Of a stretch of 64,000 nt of DNA, positions 1-60,849 are shown in pieces (positions within the stretch are counted from its first letter, which is position 1; each line of letters opens with the position of its first letter). The position numbers and the translations under genes were made by a program. The DNA is taken from the NCBI GenBank assembly GCA_025617745.1, contig CM046859.1, positions 248,001 through 312,000 of the forward strand, in the 5' to 3' direction. The notes under the pieces were generated by a model, which saw only the letters and a list, made by a program, of their open reading frames with translations, ran no database searches and was not told the origin of the DNA. This DNA is from Heliocidaris erythrogramma. Lineage: Eukaryota > Echinodermata > Echinoidea > Camarodonta > Echinometridae.

Positions 1-284
1 AATAAATAATAAATAATAAAGAAGAAAAATCTTGACGAAATTAAGAGGTGATCTGTCGATGTACGACAGATCACCTAATAATAAATAAATAAAGAAGAAA
101 AATCTTGACGAAATTAAGAGGTGATCTGTCGATGTACGACAGATCACCTAATAATAAAGAAGAAAAATCTTGACGAAATTAAGAGGTGATCTGTCGATGT
201 ACGACAGATCACCTAATAAAGAAGAAAAATCTTGACGAAATTAAGAGGTGATCTGTCGATGTACGACAGATCACCTAATAATAA
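1..284 (-). repeat. Hairpin minisatellite, block 1 (about 4 copies)
   Basis: Four tandem copies of a 60-70 bp unit. Each has an A-rich lead, the word CTTGACGAAATTAAG and a perfect 13-bp inverted repeat (AGGTGATCTGTCG, loop ATGTA, CGACAGATCACCT), followed by a variable AATAAATAA spacer that sets the unit length. The word GGTGATCTGTC also lies next to the terminal hairpin of the long units that follow, so the short unit looks like a multiplied end of the same element family. Confidence 0.9.
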
Positions 285-285
285 A

Positions 286-2308
286 CTAGAGTTTAATTCG
301 TCATGACGAATTAGGTGATCTGTCTTTCACTTTGTACGATCATGATTGTAATCAGGATGATCATAATAATGGGGAAATGCTAAACTGAAGATAGGAAGTC
401 AAGAATGCCATGAATGGAGATGCTTCTTGAGGACAGGAATGTAGCAAAATGTGTGAAACGGTCATTGTAAAAAGATTACGGTGATGATGATAATGGTGAT
501 GATGATGAAGATGATAATATAATGATGGTGATGATAATGATATTCATGATGATTATGGTGTTGGTGATTTTGAAGATGATTGATGATATAATGATGATAA
601 TGATAATGATGATAATGATGGGGATAATGGTAAGGATCATGACTGCAATGACAGTGACGTTAACCATGCCAAATATGAACGAGAAATCACATTTCGTTAT
701 GAAGATACGACCATAAGTTGATTTGTAGAAAATGGCGTCTAGATGACGTCACAATAAGATAATTAAGATAATTGACTAAGCCAATTTTGAGAAATTGTGA
801 TATCTAATAGGACTAATGATATTGTAGGATAGCTTTAATACACGTCAGTGAAACAGATTTTCCATAGGGATATACATAAACCACTGCACAGCACTTTGCA
901 ATAGACATAACATGCAAAATAAGGCATTTTATTACTTGGTTTGTGATTGTTTATGTTATAATAGTCGTAGAGGATGGTAAAATGACAAGTAAAAAGAAGC
1001 AAAAAAAAAAAAAAAAAATCGGCCCCGGGGATCGAACCAGGTACCTTGACCATGGTAGTCATGTGCTTTACCGATAGACCAAAAATATTTCCCATAGAGA
1101 TAACACGTAAACGAAAAACGTGATCTCAAATCCCATTTGGTACTGAAAAATTGGGCATGATCCCGACATCTGATCAAAAATTGGAGGGCTTACTAATAAA
1201 AGCTTATAGTCTCAGCTACAACATATTAAAATCTGGAAGGAAATAGACCAAAAATAACTGAGATACTGCTCAGAGAACGATGTCATGTAGATTCATGATT
1301 CGAAAAAAAATCATCTTCCATAGACATAACACGCAAATAGGGAAAAATTTGACATGTCGTCTTTAATTGAAGATTTCAGTGTGATGACGTCATCAAAATG
1401 AATAATGGTGGCAAGATGTCTCGTAGAGAATTGTTGCAGCTATAACATATCAAAATTTGGGAGAAAAACGACCAATAATTACGAATCTAGAGCCAAATTT
1501 GCATAATGTGATGACGTCAAAACATGAAAAATGGAAATTTTGACTTCTGGTGCCATTTTGATGACGTCATAATGTTTATATGGATGAAATGATACATGAA
1601 ATGAAATCTATGATTCATACCCTACCTGATGATGACAAAAAATTTGGGGGTCAACGGACTATCTAACGAGCTACAATGAATTTTGTAGAGGCATGTTTTT
1701 GCACGTTTTTACGTTATTTTCGCCATAGACGCGCGCACGGATTTCGAACTTTGACGCGCCCGTACGACCTTATTATTGATTGAAATTGATTCAAATTGAT
1801 GGAAATGATGAAGAAAAGTGTCAGGATTGCAAATCAATAAAAAAAAACAGCGTTCTAACGTTATTTACGATTTGTGCGCGCGTAAAACGCGCGCGCGGAC
1901 GCTTACGCACGGACATTTTTGAAATGCTCAAACTGACCTGAAACGTGTGCAGACTTGATCCTACGTGATTTTGAGCATTTTAAAATTTTGACGCGCGCGT
2001 ACGCGTACGTCCTGACCTCTAGATGACCTGTGAGGACATGACCTGATGACCCGTCATGTGAAGTTTATGTGATGTAAATATAGTTGATTTTTGATGATCG
2101 ATTATGAAGATATAATCGATCTTGTAAATTTACAAAAATGGCGTCTTGATGACGTCATGATAACCTGATGACCTTGAATGAGATGCCACATCTTGACATT
2201 GACCAGTCTGATAAGTGACGAAAATTTGAAGAAAATTGAGAATGAAATTTTTGAGGAATCATGGTAACAAGAAATGGGCGAAAAATAAAAATAAATAATA
2301 AATAATAA
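286..2308 (-). mobile_element. Long array unit A, Helitron/Helentron-like non-autonomous element
   Basis: Read on the minus strand, the unit ends with the subterminal word GACAGATCACCT, then a palindrome (AATTCGTCA/TGACGAATT), a few bases, CTAG at 286-289 and a T. Hairpin, short spacer, CTAG and T is the 3' end seen in Helitrons and Helentrons. The body holds a GAT-rich microsatellite near 480-640, a tRNA-like box pair at 1019-1080, several TGACGTCA palindromes and two CGCGCG-rich stretches near 1730-2010. No transposase is visible, so it would be non-autonomous. The family assignment rests on end structure alone. Confidence 0.55.
1019..1080 (-). tRNA. tRNA-like pol III box pair in unit A (degenerate)
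   Basis: On the minus strand there is an A-box-like TATCGGTAAAGCACATG, then the B box GGTTCGATCCC, and within a few bases a run of more than 15 T, the pol III terminator type. The T-arm has the TTCGATC loop with a nearly paired stem. The acceptor stem is not convincing, so this is a tRNA-derived sequence and not a working tRNA. Confidence 0.55.
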
Positions 2309-4110
2309 CTAGAATTTAATTCGTCATGAGACGAATTAGGTGGTCTGTCCTTAAATTTGCACGATCATGATTGTAATCAGGATGATCATATTAATGGGGA
2401 AATACTAAACAGAAGACAGGATGTCAAGAATGCCATGAATGGAGATGCTTCCTGAGGACAGGAATGTAGCAAAATGTGTAACGGTCATTGTAAAACGATT
2501 ATGGTGATGATGATAATGGTGATTATGATGATTATAATGATATAATGATGATGGCGATGATATAATAATAGCGATGATGATCATGACGGTGATGGTAATA
2601 ATGATGATGATACAGGATACTTGGGAGATTAACCCCATAGCTCTAATACAGGACAGGAAAGCACAATTTCCATAGGGTTGTACACAAACTACTGCACACT
2701 ACTTTCTAATAGACATAATATGGAAAATAAGGCAGTTTATTACATGATTTGTGATTTTTTATGTTACAATAGTCGAAGAGGATGGTAAAATGAAAGGCAA
2801 AAAGAAGCAAAAAAAAAAAAAAAAAAAAAAATCGGCCCAGGGGATCGAACCAGGTACCTTGACCATGGTAGTCATGTGCTTTACCGATAGACCAGAATAT
2901 TTCCCATAGAGATAACACGTAAACGAAAACGGGATTCTCAAATCACATTTTGTACTGAAAAATTGGCATGATCCCGACATCTGATCAAAATTGGAGGCCT
3001 TACTAATGAAAGCTTATAGTCTCAGCACAACATATTAAAATCTGGAAGAAATAGACCAAAAATAACTGAGATACTGCTCAGAGAACGATGTCATGTAGAT
3101 TCATGATTCGAAAAAAAATCATCTTCCATAGACATAACACGCAAATAGGGAACATTCTGACATGGCATCTTTAATTGAAAATTTCACTGTGATGACGTCA
3201 TCAAAATGAAAAATGGTAGAAACTGATCTGGTAGAAAATTGTCTCAGCTATAACATATCAAAATTTGGAAGAAAATCGACAACCTATTATTGAAATATTA
3301 ACAAAAGAATACAAAAATGATGACGTCATTTTTTCAAAATCATTTTTTGAGTTTCATATGCAAATATGATGACGTTAGAACATGAGATCGGCAAAATTTC
3401 TACATGAATTCAAATCTACAACTCCCAGGCTTTCAGAATATGTAAAGGAATTGGAGTTTCCGTGTATTCTGAGGAGCTATGGCGGATTCTAGATAGGCAT
3501 GTTTTTACCACCTTTTACATTAGAAATGCCCATTGACGTGGGCACGAATTTGAAAGTTTGATGCGCGCGTACGACATTATGAAGGTCGAGAATGACTGTA
3601 AATAGTTGGAAATTGTCAAGAATAGATCAGGAAGATGAAACATGCGAAAAAAAATACATTTTTACGTTCTCTACGCGCTGTGCGCGCGCATAACGCGCGC
3701 GCGGACGCGCACGGACAGGAAATTTTTAAAATGCTTAAAATGTCCTGAACAATACCCTAATTTGATTAAAAAGTGATTTGGAGCATTTTTTAAATTTTGA
3801 CGCGCGCGTACGTGCGCGTCATGATGCGCGCACGGATTTTAATGACATTTTATGTTGACCCATGACCTGAAGTTCATCTGTGTCAAATATGGTTTAATTT
3901 TTGATAACTCGTTATGAAGATATGATTGATAATGTGATTTCACAAAATGGCGCCTGGATGACGTCACGATGACCTGATGACCTTGAAAATAGATACCCGA
4001 CCTTGATCTTATAAATCCTCATAACTATAAGAGATTTGATAAAAATTGACTCAGCCGATATTGAGGAATCATGGTAACAAGAAAGTGGTGGAAAAAATAA
4101 AAATAAATAA
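2309..4110 (-). mobile_element. Long array unit B, diverged copy
   Basis: It has the same layout as unit A: CTAG at 2309-2312, terminal hairpin, GAT-rich stretch, tRNA-like box at 2832-2893, CRE palindromes and CGCGCG blocks near 3540-3840. It is clearly diverged from A in the right half, for example in the sequence around the CGCGCG blocks, so it represents an older or separate lineage of the family. Confidence 0.55.
2832..2893 (-). tRNA. tRNA-like pol III box pair in unit B (degenerate)
   Basis: Nearly the same tRNA-like sequence as in unit A, minus strand, with B box GGTTCGATCCC followed by a run of about 20 T. The stem next to the T-loop has one change relative to A (CCCAGGGG in place of CCCCGGGG on the plus strand). 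Confidence 0.5.
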
Positions 4111-4248
4111 TAAATAAATAATAATAAATAAAGAAAAAATCTGACGAAATTAAGAGGTGATCTGTCGATCTACGACAGACCACCTAATAAAGAAGAAAAA
4201 TCTTGACGAAATTAAGAGGTGATCTGTCGATGTACGACAGATCACCTA
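4111..4248 (-). repeat. Hairpin minisatellite, block 2 (2 copies)
   Basis: Two copies of the short hairpin unit. The first has changed bases in one arm (GATCTACGACAGACC), so its hairpin is imperfect. The second is perfect and abuts unit C, which begins mid-unit. Confidence 0.85.
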
Positions 4249-6022
4249 ATGATGGTGATGATAATGATATTCATGATGATTATGGTGTTGGTGATTTTGA
4301 AGATGATTGATGATATAATGATGATAATGATAATGATGATAATGATGGGGATAATGGTAAGGATCATGACTGCAATGACAGTGACGTTAACCATGCCAAA
4401 TATGAACGAGAAATCACATTTCGTTATGAAGATACGACCATAAGTTGATTTGTAGAAAATGGCGTCTAGATGACGTCACAATAAGATAATTAAGATAATT
4501 GACTAAGCCAATTTTGAGAAATTGTGATATCTAATAGGACTAATGATATTGTAGGATAGCTTTAATACACGTCAGTGAAACAGATTTTCCATAGGGATAT
4601 ACATAAACCACTGCACAGCACTTTGCAATAGACATAACATGCAAAATAAGGCATTTTATTACTTGGTTTGTGATTGTTTATGTTATAATAGTCGTAGAGG
4701 ATGGTAAAATGACAAGTAAAAAGAAGCAAAAAAAAAAAAAAAAAAAATCGGCCCCGGGGATCGAACCAGGTACCTTGACCATGGTAGTCATGTGCTTTAC
4801 CGATAGACCAAAATATTTCCCATAGAGATAACACGTAAACGAAAAACGTGATTCTCAAATCCCATTTGGTACTGAAAAATTGGGCATGATCCCGACATCT
4901 GATCAAAAATTGGAGGGCTTACTAATAAAAGCTTATAGTCTCAGCTACAACATATTAAAATCTGGAAGGAAATAGACCAAAATAACTGAGATACTGCTCA
5001 GAGAACGATGTCATGTAGATTCATGATTCGAAAAAAAATCATCTTCCATAGACATAACACGCAAATAGGGAAAAATTTGACATGTCGTCTTTAATTGAAG
5101 ATTTCAGTGTGATGACGTCATCAAAATGAATAATGGTGGCAAGATGTCTCGTAGAGAATTGTTGCAGCTATAACATATCAAAATTTGGGAGAAAAACGAC
5201 CAATAATTACGAATCTAGAGCCAAATTTGCATACATGTGATGACGTCAAAACATGAAAAATGGAAATTTTGACTTCTGGCGCCATTTTGATGACGTCATA
5301 ATGTTTATATGGATGAAATGATACATGAAATGAAATCTATGATTCATACCCTACCTGATGATGACAAAAAATTTGGGGGGTCAACGGACTATCTAACGAG
5401 CTACAATGAATTTTGTAGAGGCATGTTTTGCACGTTTTTACGTTATTTTCGCCATAGACGCGCGCACGGATTTCGAACTTTGACGCGCCCGTACGACCTT
5501 ATTATTGATTGAAATTGATTCAAATTGATGGAAATGATGAAGAAAAGTGTCAGGATTGCAAATCAATAAAAAAAACAGCGTTCTAACGTTATTTACGATT
5601 TGTGCGCGCGTAAAACGCGCGCGCGGACGCTTACGCACGGACATTTTTGAAATGCTCAAACTGACCTGAAACGTGTGCAGACTTGATCCTACGTGATTTT
5701 GAGCATTTTAAAATTTTGACGCGCGCGTACGCGTACGTCCTGACCTCTAGATGACCTGTGAGGACATGACCTGATGACCCGTCATGTGAAGTTTATGTGA
5801 TGTAAATATAGTTGATTTTTGATGATCGATTATGAAGATATAATCGATCTTGTAAATTTACAAAATGGCGTCTTGATGACGTCATGATAACCTGATGACC
5901 TTGAATGAGATGCCACATCTTGACATTGACCAGTCTGATAAGTGACGAAAATTTGAAGAAAATTGAGAATGAAATTTTTGAGGAATCATGGTAACAAGAA
6001 AATGGGCGAAAAATAAAAATAA
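4249..6022 (-). mobile_element. Long array unit C, lacking its CTAG end
   Basis: The sequence joins the family in the GAT-rich stretch, matching unit A from about 521 onward, and continues to the unit end with very few differences from A. The CTAG/hairpin end and the first 235 bp are absent, replaced directly by a short hairpin unit. This junction looks like unequal exchange between a short-unit block and a long unit. Confidence 0.6.
4748..4809 (-). tRNA. tRNA-like pol III box pair in unit C (degenerate)
   Basis: Identical in its boxes to the unit A copy. Minus strand, with a T-run directly downstream. Confidence 0.5.
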
Positions 6023-6329
6023 ATAAATAATAATAAATAAAGAAGAAAAATCTTGACGAAATTAAGAGGTGATCTGTCGATGTACGACAGATCACCTAAT
6101 AAATAATAAAGAAGAAAAATCTTGACGAAATTAAGAGGTGATCTGTCGATGTACGACAGATCACCTAATAATAAATAAAGAAGAAAAATCTTGACGAAAT
6201 TAAGAGGTGATCTGTCGATGTACGACAGATCACCTAATAAATAAATAATAAATAAAGAAGAAAAATCTTGACGAAATTAAGAGGTGATCTGTCGATGTAC
6301 GACAGATCACCTAATAAATAAATAAATAA
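6023..6329 (-). repeat. Hairpin minisatellite, block 3 (4 copies)
   Basis: Four perfect hairpin units with variable AATAAATAA spacers between unit C and unit D. On the minus strand they sit at the 5' side of unit C, the position expected if the palindrome is the element's 5' terminus. Confidence 0.9.
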
Positions 6330-8127
6330 CTAGAGTTTAATTCGTCATGAGGACGAATTAGGTGATCTGTCTTTCAATATGTACGATCATGATTGTAATC
6401 AGGATGATCATAATAATGGGGAAATGCTAAACTGAAGATAGGAAGTCAAGAATGCCATGAATGAAGATGCTTCTTGAGAGGAATGTAGCAAAATGTGTAA
6501 CGGTCATTATAAAATGATTATGGTGATGATGATAATGGTGATTATGATGATTATAATGATATGATAATTTAAGATAATTGACTAAGACAATTTTGAGAAA
6601 TTGTGATATCAAACAGGACTATTTGATATTGCAGGATACTTGGGAGATAAACCCCGTAGCTCTAATACACGACAGGGAATCAAAATTTCCATAGGGTTGT
6701 ACACAAGCTACTGCACACTAATTTCTAATAGACATAACATGCAAAATAAGGCATTTTATTGCATGGTTTGTGATTGTTTATGTTATAATAGTCGAAGAGG
6801 ATGGTAAACTGACAAGCAAAAAGAAGCAAAAAAAAAAAAAAAAAATCGGCCCCGGGGATCGAACCAGGTACCTTGACCATGGTAGTCATGTGCTTTACCG
6901 ATAGACCAGAATATGACCCATAGGGTTTACACGTAGATGGAAAATGGGATTCTCATATCGTATATTCAGCGGAAAATTTCGATATGTTCCTGGAATTGGA
7001 TTGAAAAAACCGAACCCTCATAGAAAGAGTATTAATCAGGCTACAATATATTAAAATCTGGAAGGAAATAGACCAAAAATAACTGAGATACTGCTCAGAG
7101 AACGATGTCATGTAGATTCAGGATTCGAAAACAAATCATCTTCCATAGACATAACACGCAAATAAGGGAAATTCTGACATGTCGTTTTTACTTAAAGATT
7201 TCACTATGATGACGTCATCAAAATGAAAAACTGTGGTAACTGATCTTGTAGAGAATTGTCTCAGCTATAACATATCAAAATCTGGGCGAAAAACGACCAA
7301 TAATTAAGAATCTAGATCCAAATTTGCATAAATGTGATAACGTCAAAACATGAAAAATGGAAATTTTGACTTCTGGCGCCATTTTGATGACGTCATAATG
7401 TTTATAAGGGTCAAATGATATATGAAATGAAATCTATGATTCATACTCTACCTGATGATGACAAAAAAATTGGGGGTCAACGGACTATCTAACGAGCTAC
7501 AATGAATTTTGTAGAGGCATGTTTTTGCACGTTTTTACGTTATTTTCGCCATAGACGCGCGCACGGATTTCGAACTTTGACGCGCCCGTACGACCTTATT
7601 ATTGATTGAAATTGATTCAAATTGATGGAAATGATGAAGAAAAGTGTCAGGATTGCAAATCAATAAAAAAAACAGCGTTCTAACGTTATTTACGATTTGT
7701 GCGCGCGTAAAACGCGCGCGCGGACGCTTACGCACGGACATTTTTGAAATGCTCAAACTGACCTGAAACGTGTGCAGACTTGATCCTACGTGATTTTGAG
7801 CATTTTAAAATTTTGACGCGCGCGTACGCGTACGTCCTGACCTCTAGATGACCTGTGAGGACATGACCTGATGACCCGTCATGTGAAGTTTATGTGATGT
7901 AAATATAGTTGATTTTTGATGATCGATTATGAAGATATAATCGATCTTGTAAATTTACAAAATGGCGTCTTGATGACGTCATGATAACCTGATGACCTTG
8001 AATGAGTTGCCACATCTTAACATTAACATGTCTGATCAGTGACGAAAATTTGAAGAAAATTGAGAATGAACTTTTTGAGAAATCATGGTAACAAGAAAAT
8101 GGGCGAAAAATAAAAATAAATAAATAA
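6330..8127 (-). mobile_element. Long array unit D, mosaic copy
   Basis: CTAG at 6330-6333 and a terminal hairpin with loop. The left two thirds, including a stretch near 6908-7020 that is unlike A, is diverged, but 7,450-7,990 is essentially identical to units A, C and E. This mosaic similarity suggests gene conversion or unequal crossing over within the array. Confidence 0.6.
6846..6907 (-). tRNA. tRNA-like pol III box pair in unit D (degenerate)
   Basis: Same boxes as in A to C, minus strand, with a run of about 17 T downstream. Confidence 0.5.
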
Positions 8128-10140
8128 CTAGAGTTTAATTCGTCATGAGGACGAATTAGGTGATCTGTCTTTCACTTTGTACGATCATGATTGTAATCAG
8201 GATGATCATAATAATGGGGAAATGCTAAACTGAAGATAGGAAGTCAAGAATGCCATGAATGGAGATGCTTCTTGAGGACAGGAATGTAGCAAAATGTGTG
8301 AAACGGTCATTGTAAAAAGATTACGGTGATGATGATAATGGTGATGATGATGAAGATGATAATATAATGATGGTGATGATAATGATATTCATGATGATTA
8401 TGGTGTTGGTGATTTTGAAGATGATTGATGATATAATGATGATAATGATAATGATGATAATGATGGGGATAATGGTAAGGATCATGACTGCAATGACAGT
8501 GACGTTAACCATGCCAAATATGAACGAGAAATCACATTTCGTTATGAAGATACGACCATAAGTTGATTTGTAGAAAATGGCGTCTAGATGACGTCACAAT
8601 AAGATAATTAAGATAATTGACTAAGCCAATTTTGAGAAATTGTGATATCTAATAGGACTAATGATATTGTAGGATAGCTTTAATACACGTCAGTGAAACA
8701 GATTTTCCATAGGGATATACATAAACCACTGCACAGCACTTTGCAATAGACATAACATGCAAAATAAGGCATTTTATTACTTGGTTTGTGATTGTTTATG
8801 TTATAATAGTCGTAGAGGATGGTAAAATGACAAGTAAAAAGAAGCAAAAAAAAAAATAAAAAATCTGCCCCGGGGATCGAACCAGGTACCTTGACCATGG
8901 TAGTCATGTGCTTTACCGATAGACCAAAATATTTCCCATAGAGATAACACGTAAACGAAAAACGTGATTCTCAAATCCCATTTGGTACTGAAAAATTGGG
9001 CATGATCCCGACATCTGATCAAAAATTGGAGGGCTTACTAATAAAAGCTTATAGTCTCAGCTACAACATATTAAAATCTGGAAGGAAATAGACCAAAAAT
9101 AACTGAGATACTGCTCAGAGAACGATGTCATGTAGATTCATGATTCGAAAAAAAATCATCTTCCATAGACATAACACGCAAATAGGGAAAAATTTGACAT
9201 GTCGTCTTTAATTGAAGATTTCAGTGTGATGACGTCATCAAAATGAATAATGGTGGCAAGATGTCTCGTAGAGAATTGTTGCAGCTATAACATATGAAAA
9301 TCTGGGCGAAAAACGACCAATAATTACGAATCTAGAGCCAAATTTGCATAAATGTGATGACGTCAAAACATGAAAAATGGAAATTTTGACTTCTGGTGCC
9401 ATTTTGATGACGTCATAATGTTTATATGGATGAAATGATACATGAAATGAAATCTATGATTCATACCCTACCTGATGATGACAAAAAATTTGGGGGTCAA
9501 CGGACTATCTAACGAGCTACAATGAATTTTGTAGAGGCATGTTTTTGCACGTTTTTACGTTATTTTCGCCATAGACGCGCGCACGGATTTCGAACTTTGA
9601 CGCGCCCGTACGACCTTATTATTGATTGAAATTGATTCAAATTGATGGAAATGATGAAGAAAAGTGTCAGGATTGCAAATCAATAAAAAAAACAGCGTTC
9701 TAACGTTATTTACGATTTGTGCGCGCGTAAAACGCGCGCGCGGACGCTTACGCACGGACATTTTTGAAATGCTCAAACTGACCTGAAACGTGTGCAGACT
9801 TGATCCTACGTGATTTTGAGCATTTTAAAATTTTGACGCGCGCGTACGCGTACGTCCTGACCTCTAGATGACCTGTGAGGACATGACCTGATGACCCGTC
9901 ATGTGAAGTTTATGTGATGTAAATATAGTTGATTTTTGATGATCGATTATGAAGATATAATCGATCTTGTAAATTTACAAAATGGCGTCTTGATGACGTC
10001 ATGATAACCTGATGACCTTGAATGAGATGCCACATCTTGACATTGACCAGTCTGATAAGTGACGAAAATTTGAAGAAAATTGAGAATGAAATTTTTGAGG
10101 AATCATGGTAACAAGAAAATGGGCGAAAAATAAAAATAAA
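8128..10140 (-). mobile_element. Long array unit E, near-identical to unit A
   Basis: Starts with CTAG at 8128-8131 and matches unit A along its full length with only scattered differences, including an interrupted A-run next to the tRNA-like box. A and E are the two most similar full-length units although B, C and D lie between them. Confidence 0.6.
8864..8925 (-). tRNA. tRNA-like pol III box pair in unit E (degenerate)
   Basis: Same A and B boxes. The downstream T-run is broken by an A, giving two shorter T tracts. Confidence 0.5.
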
Positions 10141-10704
10141 TAAATAATAATAATAATAAATAAATAAAGAAGAAAAATCTTGACGAAATTAAGAGGTGAT
10201 CTGTCGATGTACGACAGATCACCTAATAATAATAAAGAAGAAAAATCTTGACGAAATTAAGAGGTGATCTGTCGATGTACGACAGATCACCTAATAAAGA
10301 AGAAAAATCTTGACGAAATTAAGAGGTGATCTGTCGATGTACGACAGATCACCTAATAAATAATAAATAAAGAAGAAAAATCTTGACGAAATTAAGAGGT
10401 GATCTGTCGATGTACGACAGATCACCTAATAAATAAAGAAGAAAAATCTTGACGAAATTAAGAGGTGATCTGTCGATGTACGACAGATCACCTAATAAAT
10501 AAATAATAATAATAAAGAAGAAAAATCTTGACGAAATTAAGAGGTGATCTGTCGATTACGACAGATCACCTAATAAAGAAAAATCTTGACGAAATTAAGA
10601 GGTGATCTGTCGATGTACGACAGATCACCTAATAATAAATAAAGAAGAAAAATCTTGACGAAATTAAGAGGTGATCTGTCGATGTACGACAGATCACCTA
10701 ATAA
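10141..10704 (-). repeat. Hairpin minisatellite, block 4 (8 copies)
   Basis: Eight hairpin units, the longest block in the window. One copy has lost two bases of the loop, and another has a shortened A-rich lead. Spacing is 60-78 bp because the AATAAATAA spacer varies. Confidence 0.9.
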
Positions 10705-10894
10705 CTAGAATTTAATTCGTCATGAGGACGAATTAGGTGGTCTGTCTTTCACTTTGTATGATCATGATTGTAAGCAGGATGATCATAATAATGGTGAAAT
10801 ACTAAACTGAAGATAGGAAGTCAAGAATGCCACGCATGGAGATGCTTCTTGAGGACAGGAATGTAGAAAAATGTGTGAAACGGTCATTGGAAGA

Positions 10895-11190
10895 TGTGAT
10901 GACGTTGATGATAATCATCATCATGAATATCATGACAGTGATGATAATGATGATGATAATCATGATGATGATCATATCATGCCAGTGATGATGATAATGA
11001 TTTTAATGTTAATCATCATCATCATCATCATAAATATCATGACAGTGATGATGATAATGATGTTGATGATAATCATCATCATGAATATCATCATGACAGT
11101 GATGATGATAATGATGTTGATGATAATCATGATAGTGATATAATGATGATGATGGTGATGGTGATGGTGATGATAATGGTGATGACCATG
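10895..11190. repeat. GAT/ATC-rich imperfect microsatellite
   Basis: Imperfect GATGATGATAATGATG and ATCATCATCATG words inside unit F, partly as opposite-sense blocks. It produces long but meaningless open frames on both strands. Confidence 0.85.
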
Positions 11191-11566
11191 ACTGCAATGA
11201 CAGTGACCTTTACCATGCCAAATATGAAAGAGCAATCACATTTCGTTATGAAGATATGACCATAAGTTGATTTTTACAAAATGTCGCCTGGATGACGTCA
11301 CGATAATCTGATGAGCTTGAAAAAGATGCGCGAACTTGACTTTATTAGGACTGATGACTGCCGAAAATTTGAAGATAATTGAGTATGCCAATTTTGAGAA
11401 ATTTCCATCTGGTTGTACACAAACTTCTGCACACTACTTTCCAATAGACAAAACACGCAAAATAAGGCAGTTTAGTACATGGTTTGTGATTGTATATGAT
11501 ATAATAGTCGAAGAAGATGGTAAAATGAAAGGCAAAAAGAAGCAAAAAAATTTTTTTTTTTTTAAT

Positions 11567-11630
11567 GGACCCACCGGGGATCGAACCTGGGTCACCGGAG
11601 TGAGAGGCAAGTGCTTTGACCAATATACCA
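11567..11630 (-). tRNA. Different tRNA-like box pair in unit F
   Basis: Minus strand, with A-box-like TATATTGGTCAAAGCACTTG and B box GGTTCGATCCC. The anticodon-loop position reads CTCTCAC, as in Glu(CTC) tRNAs, but the anticodon stem is poorly paired. A T-run lies nearby downstream. It is a different tRNA-like head in the same place as in units A to E. Confidence 0.5.
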
Positions 11631-12838
11631 AAATATTTCCCATAGAGATAACACGTAAACGAAAAACGGGATTCTGAAATTCCATTTTGTAGTGAAAAAT
11701 TGGGCATGATCCCGACATCTGATCAGAAATTGGAGACCACATTTATAAAAGCTTATAGTCTCAGCTATAACATACTAAAATCTGGAAGAAAATAGACCAA
11801 AAACAACTGAGATACAGCTCAGAGAAGAATGTCATGTAGATTCATGATTCGAAAAAAAATCATCTTCCATAGACATAACACGCAAATAGGGACAATTCTG
11901 ACATGGCATCTTTAATTGAAAATTTCACTGTGATGACATCATCAAGATGAAAAATGGTGGAAACTGATTTTGTAGGAAATTGCCTCAGCTACAACATATT
12001 AAAATCTGGACGAAAAACGACTAATAAATACGAATTTAGAGCCAAATTTGCTTAAATGTGATGATGTGAAAACATGAAAAATGGAAATTTTGAATTCTGG
12101 CGCCATTTTGATGACGTCATAATGTTTATAAGGGTCAAATGATACATGAAATCATATCTATGATTCATACCCTACCTGATGATGAAAAAAAATTGGGGGA
12201 TTTATGGACTATTTAAAGAGCTAGAGTTAATTTTGTAGAGGCATGTTTTTGCACGTTTTTACGTTATTTTCGCCATAGATGCGCGCACGGATTTTGAAGT
12301 TTGACGCGCCCGTACGACCTTATTATTAATTGAAATTGATTCCAAGTTGATGGAAATGATGAAGAAAAGTGTCAGGATTGCAAATCAATCGAAAAAACAG
12401 CGTTTTAACGTTATTTACGACTTGCGCGCGCGTAAAACGCGCGCGCGGACACTTACGCACGGACATTTTTGAAATGCTCAAAATGACCTGAAACGTGTGC
12501 AGACTTGATCCTACGTGATTTTGAGCATTTTTAAATTTTGACGCGCGCGTACGCGCACGTCCTGACCTGTAGATGACCTGTGAGGACATGACTTGATGAT
12601 TCGTCATCTGAAGTTTATGTGATGTGAATATAGTTGATTTTTGATGATCGATTATGAAGATATAATCGATCTTGTAAATTTACAAAATGGCGTATTGATG
12701 ACGTCACGATGACCTGATGACCTCCAAAAGCTTAATGGACCATGTCCATGATTGACCTTATACATGACATGAAACTCGATGATATTGACGTGGCCGATTT
12801 TGAGATTTGGTGGCCACAAGAATTTGTCATAAAGAGAA

Positions 12839-12961
12839 GAAATAAAAAGAAAATTCTGACAAAATTAAAAGGTGATCTGTCGATACCGACAGACCACCTA
12901 ATAATAATAAAGAAAATTCTGACGAAATTAAGAGGTGATCTGTCTACGACAGACCACCTAA
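12839..12961 (-). repeat. Decayed hairpin units, block 5 (2 copies)
   Basis: Two diverged short units in which the hairpin loop is reduced and the arms differ (GACAGACCACC). They form the edge of the array. Confidence 0.75.
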
Positions 12962-13303
12962 TAAGATTTTTTTTTAACGTGTATAGAGAGGTAGAGACTA
13001 TTTGAGCACCAAGACGGACACATTATTATTCATGAGCTTCATGCAACACGCGCGCGTGCGCCTTCTTATTACATGTGGCTATTATAGTGGGCATCGAAGT
13101 GGGCAAAATCGCGCATTAGTGCTTATTATAGTGACTTGGTGCTCATGAAACGTGTGCTAAACCCTACGAGGATTGTAGGAATGATTATCTTGAAAATTAT
13201 GATTCAAATGAACTTTATTTACGTCTCAATATTGTTTTTAACATCTATTTATCCAGACACTGACTTTGATTTTCTGAAATTACAATCTTGATGACAATTT
13301 TAT

Positions 13304-17270: not shown

Positions 17271-17307
17271 TCGCAACTAGTTCATTTTGAAACAAAAAAA
17301 TCAAGAT

Positions 17308-17820
17308 AATGATTCCTACATTCCCCGTATGGTTTAGCACACGTTTCATGAGCACCAAGGCACTATATGAGCACCAATGCGCGATTTTGTTTAAAAACAG
17401 TCATCAAGATTGTAATCTAAGAAAATCAAAGTCATTGTCTAAATGAATAGATGCTAAAGACAATGTTGAGACGTAAATAAAGTTCATTTGAAACAAAATT
17501 TTACAGATAATCATTCCTACAATCCTCGTAGGGTTTGGCACACGTTTAATGAGCACCAATGAGCATGCACCAATGCGCGATTTTGTTTGAAAACAGTCAT
17601 CAAGATTGTAATCTAAGAAAATCAAAGTCATTGTCTAGATGAATTAGATGCTAAAGAAAATATTGAGACGTAAATAAAGTTCATTTGAAACATAATTTTC
17701 AAGATAATCATTCCTACAATCCTCGTAGGGTTTAGCACACGTTTCATGAGCACCAAGTCACTATAATGAGCACCAATGCGCGATTTTGCCCACTTCGATG
17801 CCCACTATAATAGCCACATG
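17308..17820. repeat. Tandem repeat of about 190 bp within the right arm
   Basis: About 2.6 direct copies of a unit running from AATGATTCCTACA through TTTAGCACACGTTTC and GCGCGATTTTGTTT to CAAAGTCATTGTCTA. The left arm has a single copy, so the duplication arose in this arm only. Confidence 0.75.
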
Positions 17821-17930
17821 TAATAAGAAGGCGCGCGCGCGCGTGTTGCATGAAGCTCATGAATAATAATGTGTCCGACTTGGTGCTCAAATGGTCTCTA
17901 CCTCTCTCTATACACGTTAAAAAAATCTTA

Positions 17931-18388
17931 TTTAAAGATCAGTGCTGACGAAAAAGCAATTATCTGTTTCCTACAGGCCTATTAATAAAACATTTTACGT
18001 TTTGTCCAAGAATAGGCCTATGATTTCGTCAGAAATTGAATGCAATTATATTTTATTTTAATAGCATGAAGATAAAAATTAAAAAAAAAATAAACAATGA
18101 CTAGGAATATGTAATATTTTGAAAGCGGTCTCACTGACTTTTTTCCCCGGATACATGTAAAAACATATAACTATAATCGTCTATGATCATAGGTTCAAGT
18201 TATGAGGAAATCATATTCTGGGAAAATCATTGACGGCTTGTGATGAGGAAATGGGACGTTACAAATTCATGACAAAGTGGCCAATTTGTCTAGTGATTTT
18301 CTTTGTTTTCATTAGCTTTCAGTGTCATAAAGATTCATAACTTCATTTTGTTCGATTTTACTGGAACAGAGTCGAACTGCTTTATTGT
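17931..18388. other. Spacer, no feature seen
   Basis: AT-rich spacer between two mobile elements. No coding or RNA signal recognised. Confidence 0.5.
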
Positions 18389-18389
18389 A

Positions 18390-20408
18390 TCCCCCGGCAG
18401 TATGCCGGAGGATACTTTGGATTCAGCAGCGTTTCGCCGCCGCCGCCGCCGCCGCCGCCGCGTCACATTCTTGTGTGCGCTCTAGCGGTCGCATTTCTCG
18501 ACGAATTTTTTTCAAACTTCCTGTGGACGTGTATCTTGGTAAAATCTGGACCCCTATAGTTTCTGGTGATGCTGCCCCCAGTGTTCCGTCTTTTATAGGG
18601 TAAAAGGCCATATTTTTTTGGATAGTTTGTGTGCGCTCTAGCGGTCACATTTCTCAACGGATTTTGTTCAAATTTTGTATGGAGGTGTCTCTTGGTAAAA
18701 TCTGGAACCCTATAGATTTTGGTGATGCTGCCCCCAGTGTTCCGTCTTTTATAGGGTCAAAGGTCATATTTTGATAGATGTCTTGTGTGTACTCTTGTGT
18801 GCGCTCTGGCGGTCACATTTCTCAACGGATTTCGTTCAAATTTTGCATGAAGGTGTCTCTTGGTGTAATTTAAAAACCTATAGTGTTTGGTGATGCTGCC
18901 ACCAGTGTTCCGTCTTTTATAGGGTCAAAGGTCATACTTCAGGGCATGGCATGAGTGCACTCTGCAGGCCACATTTCTCAACGGATTTTGTTCAAATTTT
19001 GTATGGAGATGTATCTTGGTATAATCTACACATGTTTAATTTTTGGTGATGCTGCCCTCATTGTTCCGTCCTTTAAAGGGTCAAAGGTCATTTTTCCATT
19101 TCTTGCACTCTTACTTCTGCATTTCTCGACGGATTTCGTTCAAATTTTGCATGAAGGTGTCCCTTGGTGTAATCTAAAAATCTGTACTTTTTGGTGATGC
19201 TGCCACCAGTGTTCCGTCTTTTATAGGGTCAAAGGTCATACTTCAAGGGATGGCGTGAGTTCACTCTGCAGGCCACATTTCTTGATGGATTTCTTTCAAA
19301 TTTTGTATGGAGATGTATCTTGGTATAATCTACACATCTTTACTGGTTGGTGATGCTGCCCTCATTATTCCGTCCTTTATAGGGTCAAAGCTCATTTGTC
19401 CCTTTTGTGCAATCTTACTTCTGCATTTCTTGACGGATTTCATTCAAATTTTGTATGGAGATGTATCTTGGTATAATCTACACATATTTAATTTTTGGTG
19501 ATGCTGCCCTCATTGTTCCGTCCTTTATAGGGTCAAAGGTCATTTTTCCATTTCTTGCACTCTTCTGCATTTCTTGACGGATTTCGTTCAAATTTCGCAT
19601 GAAGGTGTTTCTTGGTGTAATCTAAAAACCTATAGTTTTTGGTGATGCTGCCACCAGTGTTCCGTCTTTTATAGGGTCAAAGGTCATACTTCAGGGAATT
19701 GCGTGAGTGCACTCTGCAGGCCACATTTCTTGATGGATTTCTTTCAAATTCTGTATGGAGATGTATCTTGGTATAATCTACACATCTTTACTGTTTGGTA
19801 ATGCTGCCCTCATTGTTCCGTCCTTTATAGGGTCAAAGCTCATTTGTCCCTTTTGTGCACTCTTACTTCTGCATTTCTTGACGGATTTCATTCAAATTTT
19901 GTATGGAGATGTATCTTGGTATAATCTACACATATTTAATTTTTGGTGATGCTGCCCTCATTGTTCCGTCCTTTATAGGGTCAAAGGTCATTTTTCCATT
20001 TCTTGCACTCTTACTTCTACATTTCTTGACGGATTTCGTTCAAATTTTGCATGAAGGTGTCTCTTGGTGTAATCTAAAAACCTATAGTTTTTGGTGCCAC
20101 TAGTGTTCCGTCTTTTATAGGGTCAAAGGTCATACTTCAGGGCATGGCGTGAGTGCACTCTGCAGGCCACATTTCTTGATGGATTTCTTTCAAATTTTGT
20201 ATGGAGATGTATCTTGGTATATCTCTCAACACATTTCTTTCAAATTTTATATGAAGATGTGTCTTAGTGAAACCTACACATCTAATTTCTACACCATCCT
20301 TTTGTTTGAGGGAGGGGATGGGGGAGGGTCTTTGTCCCTCCTTCAAATCGCTGCCAGTGCCGGGGGATACATTTAGCATTGCGCGGCCCCAGCAATGCAC
20401 ATTTCTAG
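18390..20408 (+). mobile_element. Helitron/Helentron-type non-autonomous element with tandem core
   Basis: The element begins TCCCCCGGCA as part of a near-perfect palindrome (18,387-18,414: GTATCCCCCGGCA against TGCCGGAGGATAC) and is preceded by A. Near the other end a half copy of that palindrome (TGCCGGGGGATAC, ending at 20,370) is followed by a 7-bp hairpin GCATTGC/GCAATGC at 20,376-20,398, six bases, CTAG at 20,405-20,408, then T. A|TC...CTAG|T with a subterminal hairpin is the Helitron rule, and a short repeat shared by the 5' end and a point inside the 3' end is known for Helentrons. The core is about 12 copies of a unit of about 150 bp. No Rep/helicase gene is present. Confidence 0.7.
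18470..20290 (+). repeat. Tandem units of about 150 bp (Helitron core)
   Basis: Degenerate units with the fixed words ACATTTCTCAACGGATTT, CAAATTTTGTATGGAG, TGGTGATGCTGCC and CCGTCTTTTATAGGGTC. Two subtypes alternate, one with ATGAAGGTGTCTCTTGG and one with ATGGAGATGTATCTTGG, which implies higher-order duplication. The short open frames here repeat with the unit and are not genes. Confidence 0.85.
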
Positions 20409-32689: not shown

Positions 32690-34336
32690 GTGCCAAGCTA
32701 AAAGATGATCCTTTCCTCCTGGTTCATCCTTTCCTCATCTGTTACCCAGCACTGCTTAAAAACACAAACTCTCAGACCGTTGATCGTGTGATATTAGCAA
32801 GATTGAATTGTTGGGCAACGGGGAGACCACGAAGATGCTCCGTCACTCGATCAGGCAGTCTCCGTTTCGTCTCCCCTACGTACAACTTTCTGCAAGAAAT
32901 GCAAGTTATGCAATAGATAATTTTTGTAGAAGTGCAGGATAAATTTTTGGTCACATTCCATGATCCCTTGGGTCCAGCGATGGTGGTGGCATCCGTTACA
33001 TGAGAGTAGGTCTTGCATCTAGGTCGACGGCAGGGAACTGTATTAAGGGGTGATAGCGTATCCGTTCCCGAGCAGGCTGTATAGAAGATTTCACAAGAAT
33101 TCTTCTTAGACTAGAATCCTTCCTATATGGCATTAAAGGCATATCTCTGAAGATATCCTTAGTTTGGGGATGGTCGCTGAGCATCTTGAAGTTTTTCCTC
33201 ATGACATGGGCGACTTGAGCACTTGAGGGGTGATTATGTGAAGACCATAGATACTCGGGCAGCATTTTCCTTCTCTTTGGGCTGTAGCAAGGCTTCGTGC
33301 TGGGTCTGGGGGACAATCTTCTGCTTTGCTTCTTCGATAACTTCTGAATCAGTAGGGTATCCCCATCTGTTTAAAGAAACCAGCCATCTCGTTGATACGG
33401 CATTTGCAGTCCTCGTCAGTGCTACATAGTCTACGAAGCCGCGCGAACTGTGATCTGGGGGATAGATCGCTTACACGAAGGTGGATGGGACGAGCTGTAG
33501 TTGAGGGAACAGTGGGCATCAGTTGGTTTGTAGTGAACCCCAGTTCTAACGCTGGTCCCATCAACAGTGAGTTCTACGTCCAAGAAATCGATGGAAGTAG
33601 AATGGCGTGAGTGAATTTGAGGGATGGATCGAAGCCATTGAAATGAAAGGTGCACTTCTCTCGAGCAAGTGGCAATGCCTAGATAGTCATCTATGTAACG
33701 TAAGAGAAGGAGGGGCTTGGTTCCGTTGAAGGTAGATAAGATCTTACTCTCCACATAGCCCATAAATAGACAGGCATACGAAGGGCCCATTTTAGTTCCC
33801 ATAGAGACTCCCTGTCTTTGCAGATAGCATCTTCCGTCAAACTGGAAAGATGACAAGTTGAGAACCAGTTCGGTTAGGCGTAGCACGGTCCTGTCATCGG
33901 GCCTATCAGCTGAGGGGTTTGCAAGTAAGAAATGCTGGATAGCCTTCAAACCCTTGTTGCTTGGTATGTTCGTATACAATGCCGAAACATCCGTGGTGAA
34001 GAGGAAGTGATCCATACCCTGTGGTAGAGTGATGTTCTGTACACGTAGAATAGCATCTGACGAATCCCTCACATAATATGTAGGTAGTGACTTCACCAGG
34101 GGGGGGGGGGGAATGCTATCGAGATATCGGCTAGCAATAGGTCTCCCTGGGTTGCCCAGCTTGTGTATCTTAGGCAGCAGATAGAAGGTAGAGAGTTTAG
34201 GGTTCCTTTGAATTAGATTAGTAGCGCTCTGCGGTAGATGTTCATTCTCGATGAGATCCCGTATGGTGTCTTTCACTATTTGTTGGTGCTCCTCTGTAGG
34301 GTCTTCCCAACTAACAATCGGACGTTTTCTGAACAT
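32690..34336 (-). mobile_element. Penelope-like element with RT and GIY-YIG regions
   Basis: In order on the minus strand: an N-terminal region (KRPIVSWEDP), the RT motifs FYLLPKIHKLGNPGRPI, FTTDVSALYTNIP, QGVSMGTKMGPSYACLFMG and the catalytic YIDDYLG, then the RT thumb region with HYKPTDAHCSLNYSSSHP. A GIY-YIG endonuclease segment follows (IYCITCISCRKLYVGETKRR). This order is diagnostic for endonuclease-bearing Penelope-like elements. A G-run sits within the RT region, and the copy appears broken in several places, so it is inactive. It is a different lineage from the fragment at 28.1 kb. Confidence 0.9.
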
Positions 34337-34339
34337 TCT

Positions 34340-34620
34340 AAAAAAGTTAGTTACTTGGACGTTTTGTAAACACGTTTTTAGAACGTGTTTTGTGGAAGAT
34401 TTTAGACGTTTTTAGAACGTTTTAACAGGACGCTTTTCAAACGTTTTCTAAACGTTAGAAAAACCAATAAAAATCTTTTATGCATTTGCTTTTAAGTGTA
34501 AGGACATGCAGAAAACCCTCTCGGACGCTGGAGACGTTTTTGCAAACGTTTTAAGAACATCAAAAAACGTCCAGAAAACCTTTTAAGAACGCCTAAAAAC
34601 GCCTGAAACCCCCATTTCTT
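34340..34620. repeat. Degenerate AACGTTTT/AAAACGTT repeat
   Basis: Short words such as GTTTTTAGAACGTTT and AAACGTTTTCTAAACGTT in both orientations, giving local hairpins. It directly abuts the 5' side of the Penelope-like element. Confidence 0.6.
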
Positions 34621-36066: not shown

Positions 36067-37388
36067 TGTTCACCAAGTTATTCTGTAGAAACTTGCCTGA
36101 TTTTGTGACAAAATTCACTAAAAACTCGGTTTTCTTACAAAATTATTGAACAGCAATTCATTTTGTAACAAAATGAATTTTAAAAGGTAATTTTTTAACA
36201 AAAAATATTCTGTTACAAAATTAACATTACAGAAATATTTTTTCCGATTTCATTTTGTAACAAACATCATTCTGTTACAAAATTAACATGACAATTTTTT
36301 TATTTTGATACAAAAATCATTCTGTTACAAAATGAACATGTCCAATTATATTTTGTAACGAAAATTATTTTGTCCTTTCTCATTTTGTAACGAAAATAAT
36401 TTTGTTACAAAATTAACATGGCGAATTTATTTTGTCCATTTCCATTTTGTAACAAAAATCATTCTGTTACAAAATGAACATAACAAAATTATTTTGTAAC
36501 AAAAATTATTTTGTGCATTTAGAAGTTAGAAGTCTGTAGGATGTAGGATAGTTCAGATAGCCAAGGAGAACAAAAGACATGAAAATGGCCCCAAAACGGA
36601 CAACATGGCGCCTGGACGGTCATGCAAGAGTGATTCCGGAAAACGAAGAGTCAGGTGCCCAACTTGACATGCCAAAGAACATGCGTACGAAATTTGAAAT
36701 AAAATGGACAAGGGGAAAGGACCTAGACAGAGCTAACAATCACTGCATGCAAAACAAATTTGCTGCAGAGGAACAAGAAGAAGAAGTCGAAGAAGAATGC
36801 AAAACTCGAACGAGAAAAGACCACTGACTGACGTCAATGAATTATGTGTCCATTCTCATTTTGTGACAAAAATCATTCTGTTACAAAATGAAAATTGACA
36901 AAATGATTTTTGTTACAAAAAATCGGACAGAATTAGTTTGTGATGTTAATTTTGTAACAGAATGAGTTTTGTTACAAAATGAGGATGAACCAAATTATTC
37001 TGTCATGATTAATTTTGTAACAAAATGATTTTTGTTACAAAGTGAGGATGAACCAAATTATTCTGTCATGATTAATTTTGTAACAGAATGAGTTTTGTTA
37101 CAAAATGAAAATGAACCAAATTATTCTGCCATGATTTATTTTGTAACAAAATAAAAAAAATTGTCATGTTAATTTTGTAACAGAATGATGTTTGTTACAA
37201 AATGAAATCGGACAAAATAATTCTGTAATGTTAATTTTGAAACAGAATATTTTTTGGTTACAAAATTACCTTTTAAAATTCATTTTATTACAAAATGAAT
37301 TGCTGTTCAATAATTTTGTAACAAAAGTTTGTTAGAGTGGATTTTGTCACAAAATCTGGCAAGTTTCCACAGAATAACTTGGTGAACA
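36067..37388. mobile_element. Foldback element made of TTTTGTAACAAAA words
   Basis: The ends TGTTCACCAAGTTATTCTGT and its inverse face each other across 1.3 kb. Each arm is a chain of variants of the self-complementary word TTTTGTAACAAAA and of TTCTGTTACAAAA, so the whole element can fold on itself and each word can also fold locally. The centre carries a copy of repeat R1 (36,527-36,838). There is no coding frame. Confidence 0.75.
36527..36838 (+). repeat. Dispersed repeat R1, copy 3, inside the foldback element
   Basis: Matches 31,770-32,095 with about 10 percent difference and the same 3' end GACTGACGTCAATG. It sits at the centre between the two foldback arms. Confidence 0.75.
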
Positions 37389-48609: not shown

Positions 48610-48922
48610 AAAGTTTACTCAACATTTTTTAGAGTGCAAGGAGCAGGCAAACTAACTCGCCAACACATCCATTATTCCTACTTGCACCTGGATCAATTTA
48701 AATGTGTTAAATAAGGAATTATCGTAAAACAATTGACAGTTCATAAAAGAACTTTTGTTTAGGTTTGTCTTCTTACGATAATTATTTTTACACATGTGTT
48801 TAATGTAAAAATGAGTGAAATTATTATGTTCATATATGTATACTAACTTACTGAATAATGTTCTACATAATTATGTAAAAGTTTGTTTATCCGTGGAAAT
48901 GAAAATAAATTGAATTGAATTA
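48610..48922 (+). repeat. 3' end of a LINE-type repeat next to a second LINE
   Basis: AT-rich tail ending AAATTGAATTGAATT at about 48,905-48,922, the same tail form as at 51,235-51,270. A second LINE body begins immediately after it, so a 3' fragment and a 5'-truncated copy lie head to tail. Confidence 0.55.
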
Positions 48923-48924
48923 AT

Positions 48925-51272
48925 GACGATATAATTGAAACAATGCGTGAAAGAGATCATGCCCATGATGTGGCGCTTAAGAAAGGTGGTGACACATCAT
49001 GGGCTAGGTACAAAGAACTGAAGAACAAAGTGAATTATCTTCTGAAAAAAGAAAAAAGAAATTATCACAGTTCTCAGATAGATATGAGTAAAGGGAATAG
49101 CAAAAAAATGTGGCAGAGTATCAAGCACATTATTCCTAAATCCAATCATGTCTTACCCAGCAGCCTAGACGTGAATGGGACCAAAATTACTGATGACAAA
49201 GGTATTGCTCAAACATTTAATGAATATTTTGTTACTTGTGCTCAAAATATTACGCGTGATATCCCAAAACACGCTGAAATCATTCTAGAAGAAAATGAGC
49301 TAGCTAATACTGAAGAAAAGTTTGAGCTACATCAAGTCACGAACGCATTTGTTTTAAAAGAAATTGAAAACATGAGTGACGATAAAGCAACAGGTGATGA
49401 TGGAATAAGTTGCCGTCTTTTGAAAATGGCGAAATATGTCATTGTTGACTCTTTAACGTGCCTTATCAATAAGTCAATTGCAACAGGACAAGTGCCTAAA
49501 ATCTTGAAAAAAGCGAGAGTTATTCCAATTTACAAGGCTGGTGATATGTCCACTCCCAGTAATTACAGACCAATATCGATATTATCCGTAGTAAGCAAGA
49601 TTCTAGAAAAAGCTGTGCATTTCCAACTATGTGATTTTCTCGACAAATATGAAATATTGTGTGCTAACCAATCAGGTTTTCGTCCCCTTCACTCTACTGC
49701 AACAGCTCTTATGAAATTAGTTAACCAATGGTCATTGAATATTGATAACAATGAATTAACAGGTGTTGCTTTCATTGATTTGAGGAAAGCATTTGACACT
49801 GTTGATCACGATATTCTGTTACATAAACTGAAAGCCATTGGCTGTTCTGATAGGAGTGTTCAGTGGTTTGTATCATATCTGTCTAACCGAGAACAGACGG
49901 TTTGTTTTAAAGGGACCACTTCAAGTTCCTCAAAAATTGTGATGGGTGTCCCACAAGGTTCAATTCTTGGGCCACTTCTTTTTTCTATCTACATTAATAG
50001 CTTACCAAAATGTATTGATGAAGGTATTGTTGATATGTATGCCGACGACACCACTCTAACAGTTAACGGAAGAAGTGTTGCAGAAGTAGAGCGAAAGCTA
50101 ACAAAAGGTTTAGAAAATGTTTTTTCGTGGGTAACAAAAAACCGTCTAGTTCTTAATGCTGATAAGACAAATGTGATGCTTATTGGACCACGATCCATTC
50201 TTAATAGTGTAAAGGATTTTTCTGTCACACTAAACGGCAGTTGTCTGAAAAGAGTTAAAGTTGCCAAGTGTCTAGGTGTCATGATCGATGAGGAGTTGCG
50301 ATGGACGGAACATGTGGAAAAAGTTATTAAGACTGCTCAAAAAAATATTAGTGTAATTAAGCGAGCAAAAAGTTATGTTCCAACTAGGTCTCTGAAACTT
50401 CTATATAATTCCATCGTCCTTCCTCATTTTGATTATTGTTCCTCTGTTTGGTCCGAAAGATTTCAAAGACAAACTATTAAACTACAAAAGGTTCAGAAAC
50501 GGGCTGCCCGTATAGTGTTGGGAGAAGGATTCGATGTATCCTCAAAAGATATGTTTAGTCGGTTAGGTTGGATGACTATTCAGACAGTTTGGACGTGCAG
50601 TGATGATGTATAAAGCAATGCATGGCGTGGCACCAGAATACTTAAAAAAAGATTTACAACATGTCAGCTCTCTACATGATCACAGCACAAGACATGCTGT
50701 AAGAGATACATTGCGTGTACCTAAATTTAGGACGGACACATACAAAACATAGTCCCCTAATATCTGGAATTGCAGTATGGAACCAACTTGAAACTTCTAT
50801 CAAAATGTTGCCTACTTTAAACAGTTTCAAATACACTCTAAAAGCTCTGTTATCTGCAGAGGAGATGTAAGCTGTGAACTATATGGGGATATTATGCATA
50901 GCAACTTCTTTGGTATATGTGTTGTTAATTAATTATTTCCCCTCATTTTGATGTGTGGTTATCATCCATATTTTAATTTGATTATTTCACAGTTTACAAT
51001 GCTAATAATCCTTAATTTAAAATTCGATTCGAAAATTCTTGTAAATAGTCAATGAATATTACTGAATGATTACTTAACTAATGAGGATACCGATTAATGT
51101 GTATTATACGTGTTTATGCTTGTGTATTTATATATATTGATTATTGTTGATGTTATTTGTTTTATTGTTACCAAACAGGGCCTCATGGAAGACCACCAAA
51201 TTGGTGATATGAGCCACCCTGTATAAATATCAGAAATAAATAAATAAATAAATAAATTGAATTGAATTGAAT
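48925..51272 (+). mobile_element. LINE, 5'-truncated, CR1/Jockey/L2-like group
   Basis: Inserted in the phosphatase intron between exons 51,287-51,323 and 48,248-48,345, in the opposite direction to the gene. It holds most of an RT ORF, a 3' UTR and an (AATTG)/(AAAT) tail at 51,235-51,272 that ends 14 bp from the next exon. The endonuclease part is absent. One long frame is retained, so it is younger than the LINE at 40-43 kb. Confidence 0.85.
48943..50613 (+). pseudogene. LINE reverse transcriptase ORF, C-terminal two thirds
   Basis: 556 codons open. A Lys-rich linker (SKGNSKKMWQSIKHIIP) precedes RT motifs SNYRPISILSVVSKILE, ANQSGFRPLHSTATAL, AFIDLRKAFDTVDHDILL, GVPQGSILGPLLFSIYIN and the catalytic YADDT, then the thumb (CLGVMIDEELRWTEHV) and the C-terminal LYNSIVLPHFDYCSSVW. 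A frame change near 50,590 moves the normal ending (MMYKAMHGVAPEYLKKDLQ ... LLSAEEM) into another frame, and a second break near 50,750 follows. Residual coding reaches 50,870. The enzyme would have copied its own RNA at a nicked target; this copy lacks its endonuclease. Confidence 0.88.
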
Positions 51273-60838: not shown

Positions 60839-60849
60839 TTTGAAAAAAT

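Follow-up and report, generated by a model that had tools for sequence, protein, structure and literature searches.

The window analysed, a stretch of 64,000 nucleotides, starts within a repeat array that occupies positions 1–12,964, and the left end of the array thus lies beyond it. The array consists of six long units (A to F; ~1.8–2.1 kb each) and 20 copies of a short palindromic unit of ~65 bp, all in a single orientation. Along the minus strand come, in turn, the flank, two short units, F, eight short units, E, D, four short units, C, two short units, B, A and at least four short units up to the window edge; in the order of the coordinates, the 20 copies fall into groups of four before A, two between B and C, four between C and D, eight between E and F and two after F, leaving aside the self-matches of the palindrome on the reverse strand. 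The boundaries of the long units were set by us from alignments, and these alignments confirmed what an earlier note on this DNA had described: six related units of this size in one orientation. The same note had placed two to eight short units between most of the long ones, with D and E adjacent. The copy numbers and the D–E contact held, but A and B are joined directly as well, and short units occupy three of the five gaps. Long reading frames are absent from the body of the long units (the longest frame in the array has 125 aa), and outside the array the long units match only stretches of 18–35 nt of the window. The features are listed below; short units are called 5' modules, a reading argued further on, and A-type and G-type refer to their variable position.

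15–281, minus strand: four 5' modules, A-type; on our reading part of the next element, which lies off the window
285–2300, minus strand: long unit A, without a 5' module of its own; complete 3' end with CTAG at 286–289 and inverse repeat at 310–324
2308–4105, minus strand: long unit B, divergent and mosaic; complete 3' end with G-type inverse repeat at 2335–2349
4123–4190, minus strand: 5' module adjoining B, G-type, the same as B's own 3' end
4186–4250, minus strand: A-type 5' module joined directly to C, whose 3' side is truncated; differs from the variant of B
4247–6025, minus strand: long unit C, without hairpin and CTAG
6036–6317, minus strand: four 5' modules of C, A-type
6329–8118, minus strand: long unit D, without 5' module; 3' inverse repeat at 6357–6371
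8127–10140, minus strand: long unit E; A-type 3' inverse repeat at 8155–8169
10163–10704, minus strand: eight 5' modules of E, A-type
10704–12842, minus strand: long unit F; G-type 3' inverse repeat at 10732–10746 and a different tRNA-like block
12841–12964, minus strand: pair of G-type 5' modules belonging to F and forming the outer 5' end of the array
12961–13301, no strand assigned: host sequence flanking F at its 5' end, similar to 17590–17931 up to the start of the 5' palindrome
17590–17931, no strand assigned: second copy of the 5' flank of F, in opposite orientation, continuing beyond the insertion point into other sequence

On the minus strand, five of the six long units close with a hairpin of 8–9 bp, a CTAG that is complete 8 nt later and then a T; C lacks this end, and the earlier description of the 3' termini was correct in both respects. 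The minus strand of the array contains 18 CTAG motifs, of which five are followed by T and five have the hairpin arm GACGAATT just upstream, and these are the same five. All five 3' ends fold better than most of their shuffled versions (z −2.1 to −3.7; 4, 6, 0, 1 and 1 of 200 shuffles fold equally well), whereas the hairpin stems are invariant across the five ends and the pairing is therefore without covariation support. TTATT or TTTATT comes after all five complete 3' ends. A plain end-to-end joint of CTAG to a defined 5' terminus, which would be the proof of a circle, is found in none of the five sequences after CTAG, all of which begin with TT.

The short unit, read on the same strand, starts with ATTAGGTG[A/G]TCTGTCG, contains a palindrome and passes after ~25 nt into a TTTATT microsatellite. 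Its common form folds into a 13-bp stem, and the palindrome was recovered in all three of the 20 modules that were folded (z −5.3 to −7.6; 0 of 200 shuffles as good). An exact inverse copy of the 15-mer ATTAGGTG[A/G]TCTGTC lies immediately internal to the 3' hairpin, and the 15-mer is exact in 20 of 20 modules and in all five complete 3' ends. When the two ends were compared, using one module for each of four elements, none of 2,000 shuffles reached a shared word of 15 bp (longest 10). All 20 modules were covered by a window-wide pattern search, in which the 15-bp end pattern with up to three mismatches gave 49 matches against 2.65 expected from whole-window shuffles; four of the matches lie outside the array, each with three mismatches. 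By this excess and by the folding of the three modules, the array is no chance pattern.

At the variable position of the 15-mer, G is carried by three of 20 modules (the one adjoining B and the two of F) and by two of five 3' ends (those of B and F); the remaining 17 modules and the ends of A, D and E have A. In the elements that possess both ends (B, E and F), the body-adjacent module shows the same variant as the 3' end of its element in three of three cases; these elements are few, and the A and G variants may simply mark two subfamilies. Were the modules instead tails of the preceding element, the eight A-type modules beside F would disagree with its G-type end. Of the two modules between B and C, the second is A-type, unlike B, and is read as belonging to C; A and D have no 5' module. 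Since the inverted subterminal repeats and the agreement of their variants tie the short and the long unit together, the short unit most probably represents the 5' end of the same element rather than a separate unit lying between the long ones, as had been proposed before. The complete element on the minus strand would accordingly be composed of (TT)ATTAGGTG[A/G]TCTGTCG with its palindrome and ~25 nt, a TTTA/TTA microsatellite, the body, the inverse 15-bp repeat, the hairpin, CTAG and T.

In order to place the outer 5' end, the flank beyond F (12,961–13,301) was compared with positions 17,590–17,931, to which it is 93.9% alike over 344 aligned positions. The flank copy reads ...TTAAAAAAATCTTATT followed by TAAAGATCAG, and the array ...TTAAAAAAAAATCTTATT followed by AGGTGGTCTG, which places the joint at CTTATT|AGGTGG in the filled site and at CTTATT|TAAAG in the flank copy; the comparison is one-sided, and the flank repeat itself may end at this joint. 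AAAATC precedes the first module of F, and the same TC is present in the flank copy without element. The apparent A|TC start is therefore host sequence, and a Helitron1-type TC start at F was rejected on the evidence of this one flank. The element would start within or after TTATT. Because TTATT is common to the flank and the modules (those within the array start with TTATT or TTTATT), the exact cut is ambiguous, and three placements fit: T|T, described for Helentrons; TTAT|T, described for two Fusarium subgroups; and A|T with a 5' TT, the arrangement of the proto-Helentron. A 197-bp tandem repeat (2.5 copies, 17279–17788) lies beside the flank copy, and its unit is also found in the flank of the array.

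Published accounts describe Helentrons, HINEs and Helitron2 elements as carrying inverted subterminal repeats, with palindromes at one end or both, and as inserting into T-rich targets (PMC4067079, PMC5148889, PMC7492417). Helentron ends are described as T-rich, not CTAG, and the proto-Helentron as ending in CTAG (PMC4067079). Helentrons are reported to insert in TT (PMC4067079), and two Fusarium Helitron2-like subgroups in TNAT|T, one Fusarium element sitting 2 bp upstream of a partial copy (PMC5148889). In the present units, both ends have an inverse subterminal repeat, which is palindromic on the 5' side, and a hairpin stands near the 3' terminus at five of five complete ends, lost in C; the 3' repeat lies ~24–42 nt from the 3' end, that is, at the edge of the published HINE range of about 38–60 bp. 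With HINE/DINE-1, as described in PMC4067079 and PMC7492417, they share a palindromic 5' subterminal repeat a few nucleotides from the likely 5' end, a 3' inverse copy with a hairpin, a microsatellite, tandem repeats, a T-rich target and no visible coding. They differ in the 3' end, which is CTAG|T here, in what is repeated, here the 5' module itself and not a set of central repeats flanked by the two end modules, and in that no autonomous partner was seen among the 8 of 30 window frames scanned. FoHeli1/2 of Fusarium, Helitron2-like (PMC5148889), are alike in their asymmetric inverted repeats with hairpins at both ends and in a 3' repeat roughly 20–40 bp from the end; their target TNAT|T corresponds to TTAT|T as one possible placement here, whereas their terminal sequences are different and autonomous copies are known. 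The proto-Helentron of Phytophthora (PMC4067079) has the 3' CTAG and the 5' TT, and its A|T target is another possible placement, but it is about 14 kb long and coding; the comparison covers its termini and target.

The profile scan that covered 8 of the 30 frames in the window, all outside the array, found no Rep/helicase gene; it returned three reverse transcriptases (one below cut-off), one sub-threshold match and four frames without a match. The anatomy of the element, with its inverted subterminal repeats, 5' palindrome, TTTA microsatellite and 3' hairpin, indicates HINE/DINE and Helitron2 rather than the canonical Helitron1. The assignment to the rolling-circle superfamily in the earlier note is supported, while a canonical Helitron is not, in view of the 15-bp inverted subterminal repeats and the 5' palindrome, the sole apparent A|TC start being host sequence. 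The Helitron name should be narrowed to Helitron2/Helentron-type, HINE-like in workings and most probably also in kind, as a provisional member.

Divergence among the long units is very uneven. Identity over the longest aligned piece ranges from 76% (B–F) to 99.3% (A–C, A–E and C–E). A and C differ by a single substitution in 1,773 aligned positions and 12 indel events, A and E by 5 substitutions in 2,008 and 8 indel events, and C and E by 7 in 1,774 and 6 indel events. B, D and F are more divergent (about 14–24% apart) and mosaic, and the young A, C and E alternate with them along the array. Units D and E, which agree at 92% overall, are identical over 537 consecutive aligned positions, a length that none of 2,000 column shuffles reached (longest 162). 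F, compared with E in successive blocks of 100 columns along roughly this stretch, agrees at 79%, 92%, 97%, 93%, 94% and 88%, and constraint alone is therefore insufficient to account for the tract. The tract in D is conversion-like, and the units exchange sequence. Further identical runs extend over 144 (B–E), 72 (B–D), 67 (D–F) and 64 (B–F) positions, each unmatched in 2,000 shuffles, and a weaker one over 67 (F–E; reached by 3 of 2,000 shuffles, longest 85), but column shuffles disregard the clustering of conserved columns and the shorter runs thus tell little. Among the modules, a 55-nt core is identical in 16 of 20, and the spacers between them vary in length.

The array contains 20 5' modules and five 3' ends. 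Unit C passes from CATCATTA directly into GGTGATCTG, with ATTA common to the body and the module at the joint, and the modules are flanked on either side by TTTATT-like repeats. The surplus of 5' ends and the joint of C agree with published rolling-circle amplification after loss of the 3' terminator. Circular templates that lose this terminator by internal recombination and yield arrays with many 5' ends were proposed by Xiong et al. 2016, as cited in PMC12628747 and PMC8268682; the tandem truncated Helitrons described there are alike in their surplus 5' ends and in having a 3'-less unit followed by a new 5' end, but they are from plants, whereas here five of six units retain the 3' end and the surplus is in a ~65-bp 5' module. 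For Helraiser, the 5' end is reported as essential and the 3' hairpin as a terminator open to bypass (PMC4778049), and the Helitron-borne satellites of Caenorhabditis are described as having palindromic repeats (PMC4595182).

Taken together, the locus is probably a tandem array of non-autonomous, HINE-like rolling-circle transposons of the Helitron2/Helentron side, which would have grown from 3'-less circles and later been homogenised. An autonomous partner would provide Rep/helicase, and replication would begin at the 5' module and ordinarily halt at the 3' hairpin. Circular templates might lose the 3' end by recombination between microsatellites or through a short shared sequence, as at the joint between C and its module; the 3'-less circles would be copied into strings with surplus 5' modules, and subsequent exchange from unit to unit would homogenise the array. 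Such tandem growth by rolling circle, for which there is precedent in print, is plausible. A variant that we consider improbable takes the module as the minimal rolling-circle unit itself, the palindrome acting as a premature terminator, so that the module alone would be copied and re-inserted in strings of up to eight. The module does fold more strongly than the 3' end (−10.0 to −15.2 kcal/mol for three modules versus −7.5 to −9.0 kcal/mol for five ends, in pieces of 56–61 nt).

The same elements could also have accumulated by nested insertion, each newcomer landing in the TTAT/TTTAT microsatellite 5' of a resident copy as a preferred target, and this we hold to be possible without being probable. 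In its favour, TTATT or TTTATT stands behind every complete 3' end, the outer target is likewise CTTATT, and the alternation of young A, C and E with the more divergent B, D and F fits it, as do the TT and TNAT|T targets and the Fusarium element 2 bp upstream of a partial copy described in PMC4067079 and PMC5148889. Nested insertion alone, however, leaves the strings of four to eight near-identical modules and the fusion of C to a module unexplained. An ordinary satellite, shaped by replication slippage and unequal exchange alone with transposition long past, would account for the common 55-nt core with spacers of varied length and for the D–E identity; it appears rather unlikely, as B, D and F at about 14–24% divergence beside near-identical A, C and E are not expected from plain unequal exchange of a dimer.

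A canonical Helitron1 (5' TC, 3' CTRR, target A|T) whose copies are separated by unrelated satellite units is very improbable. Its 3' feature of hairpin, CTRR and T is found in five of six units, AAAATC stands ahead of the first module of F, and the shared TTATT leaves room for an A|T target (CTTA|TT), but the TC occurs in the element-free flank copy (one flank), the sequences after CTAG all begin with TT, and Helitron1 has no terminal inverted repeats, yet 15-bp inverse repeats with matching variants link the short and the long unit. We are equally sceptical of a partial assembly artefact, in which near-identical units or modules were mis-joined or mis-counted. Near-perfect repeats at the window edge invite this suspicion, as does a run of 500 N near 46.7–47.2 kb, which marks the assembly as scaffolded; B, D and F are nevertheless distinct enough to anchor the order, and the module spacers differ in length.

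On the preferred reading of amplified Helitron2-type elements, the locus holds a two-ended rolling-circle element that is apparently turning into a satellite and in which divergent units adjoin near-identical ones; the trend towards a composite satellite suggested before is supported. Matched end variants assign modules to elements, and the 3' terminator of C is replaced by a new 5' end, making the array a concrete place for studying the origin of surplus 5' ends. The element class and the general idea are already in print, while a repeated 5' end module beside complete HINE-like elements was not met in the literature surveyed, which consisted mostly of titles and the openings of abstracts.

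Each long unit also carries on the minus strand a tRNA-like stretch followed by a T run (1016–1095, 2829–2907, 4745–4823, 6843–6921, 8861–8939 and 11574–11643), in which we assume certain letters to be boxes A and B. In F the block is a different tRNA-like sequence, 75% identical to that of A, whereas the sequences on either side of it appear far more similar in the alignment, which gives the impression of an exchanged cassette. No tRNA gene was found within the units by ARAGORN (bacterial code) or by Rfam at gathering score; a tRNA family was not among the matches listed up to E 5, nor, for two of the six units (the blocks of F and A), among those up to E 10. In the block of F, the matches listed include tmRNA models aligned along the T arm (E 0.29 and 5.1), one lower-scoring match of the same clan being omitted. 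A tRNA gene inside the units is thus without ARAGORN or Rfam support, and the weak T-arm matches of F count against a flat no. F further contains a long GAT-rich stretch (10893–11185) with a 54-bp tandem repeat (10899–11130), and miRNA matches in this part, which reach E 2.8e-05 but only 40.8 bits where the gathering score is 150, were taken as low complexity.

A viral source was considered and dismissed: one IMG/VR contig, represented by 1,863 of its 19,614 bases, shares 20–24 letters with the array; its other matches to the window are weak (E at least 0.35 apart from that stretch), and the likeness was taken as chance. This contig has one match to the 20-letter pattern with which the viral-contig collection was searched, and the same pattern gave none in the genome-contig collection, so that neither search yielded a relative; the window's own genome is possibly left out of both. 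The motif TGACGTCA, which we take to be the CRE/ATF palindrome, occurs 24 times in the array, by eye at corresponding places of the units, against a mean of 0.28 in 50 resampled sequences, and five times in the rest of the window.

Elsewhere in the window, a 156-bp tandem repeat is present in 11.5 copies at 18470–20221, and dense palindromic tandem repeats similar to ATTTTGTTACAAAAT occupy 36339–37152. Reverse transcriptase frames (PF00078) are found at 33431–34411 on the minus strand (E 1.9e-05, below the curated cut-off), at 48919–50613 on the plus strand (E 2.1e-38) and at 62851–63858 on the minus strand (E 3.6e-21). The last of these lies within 60643–63858 on the minus strand, beside neighbouring long frames that resemble a DIRS-type element.
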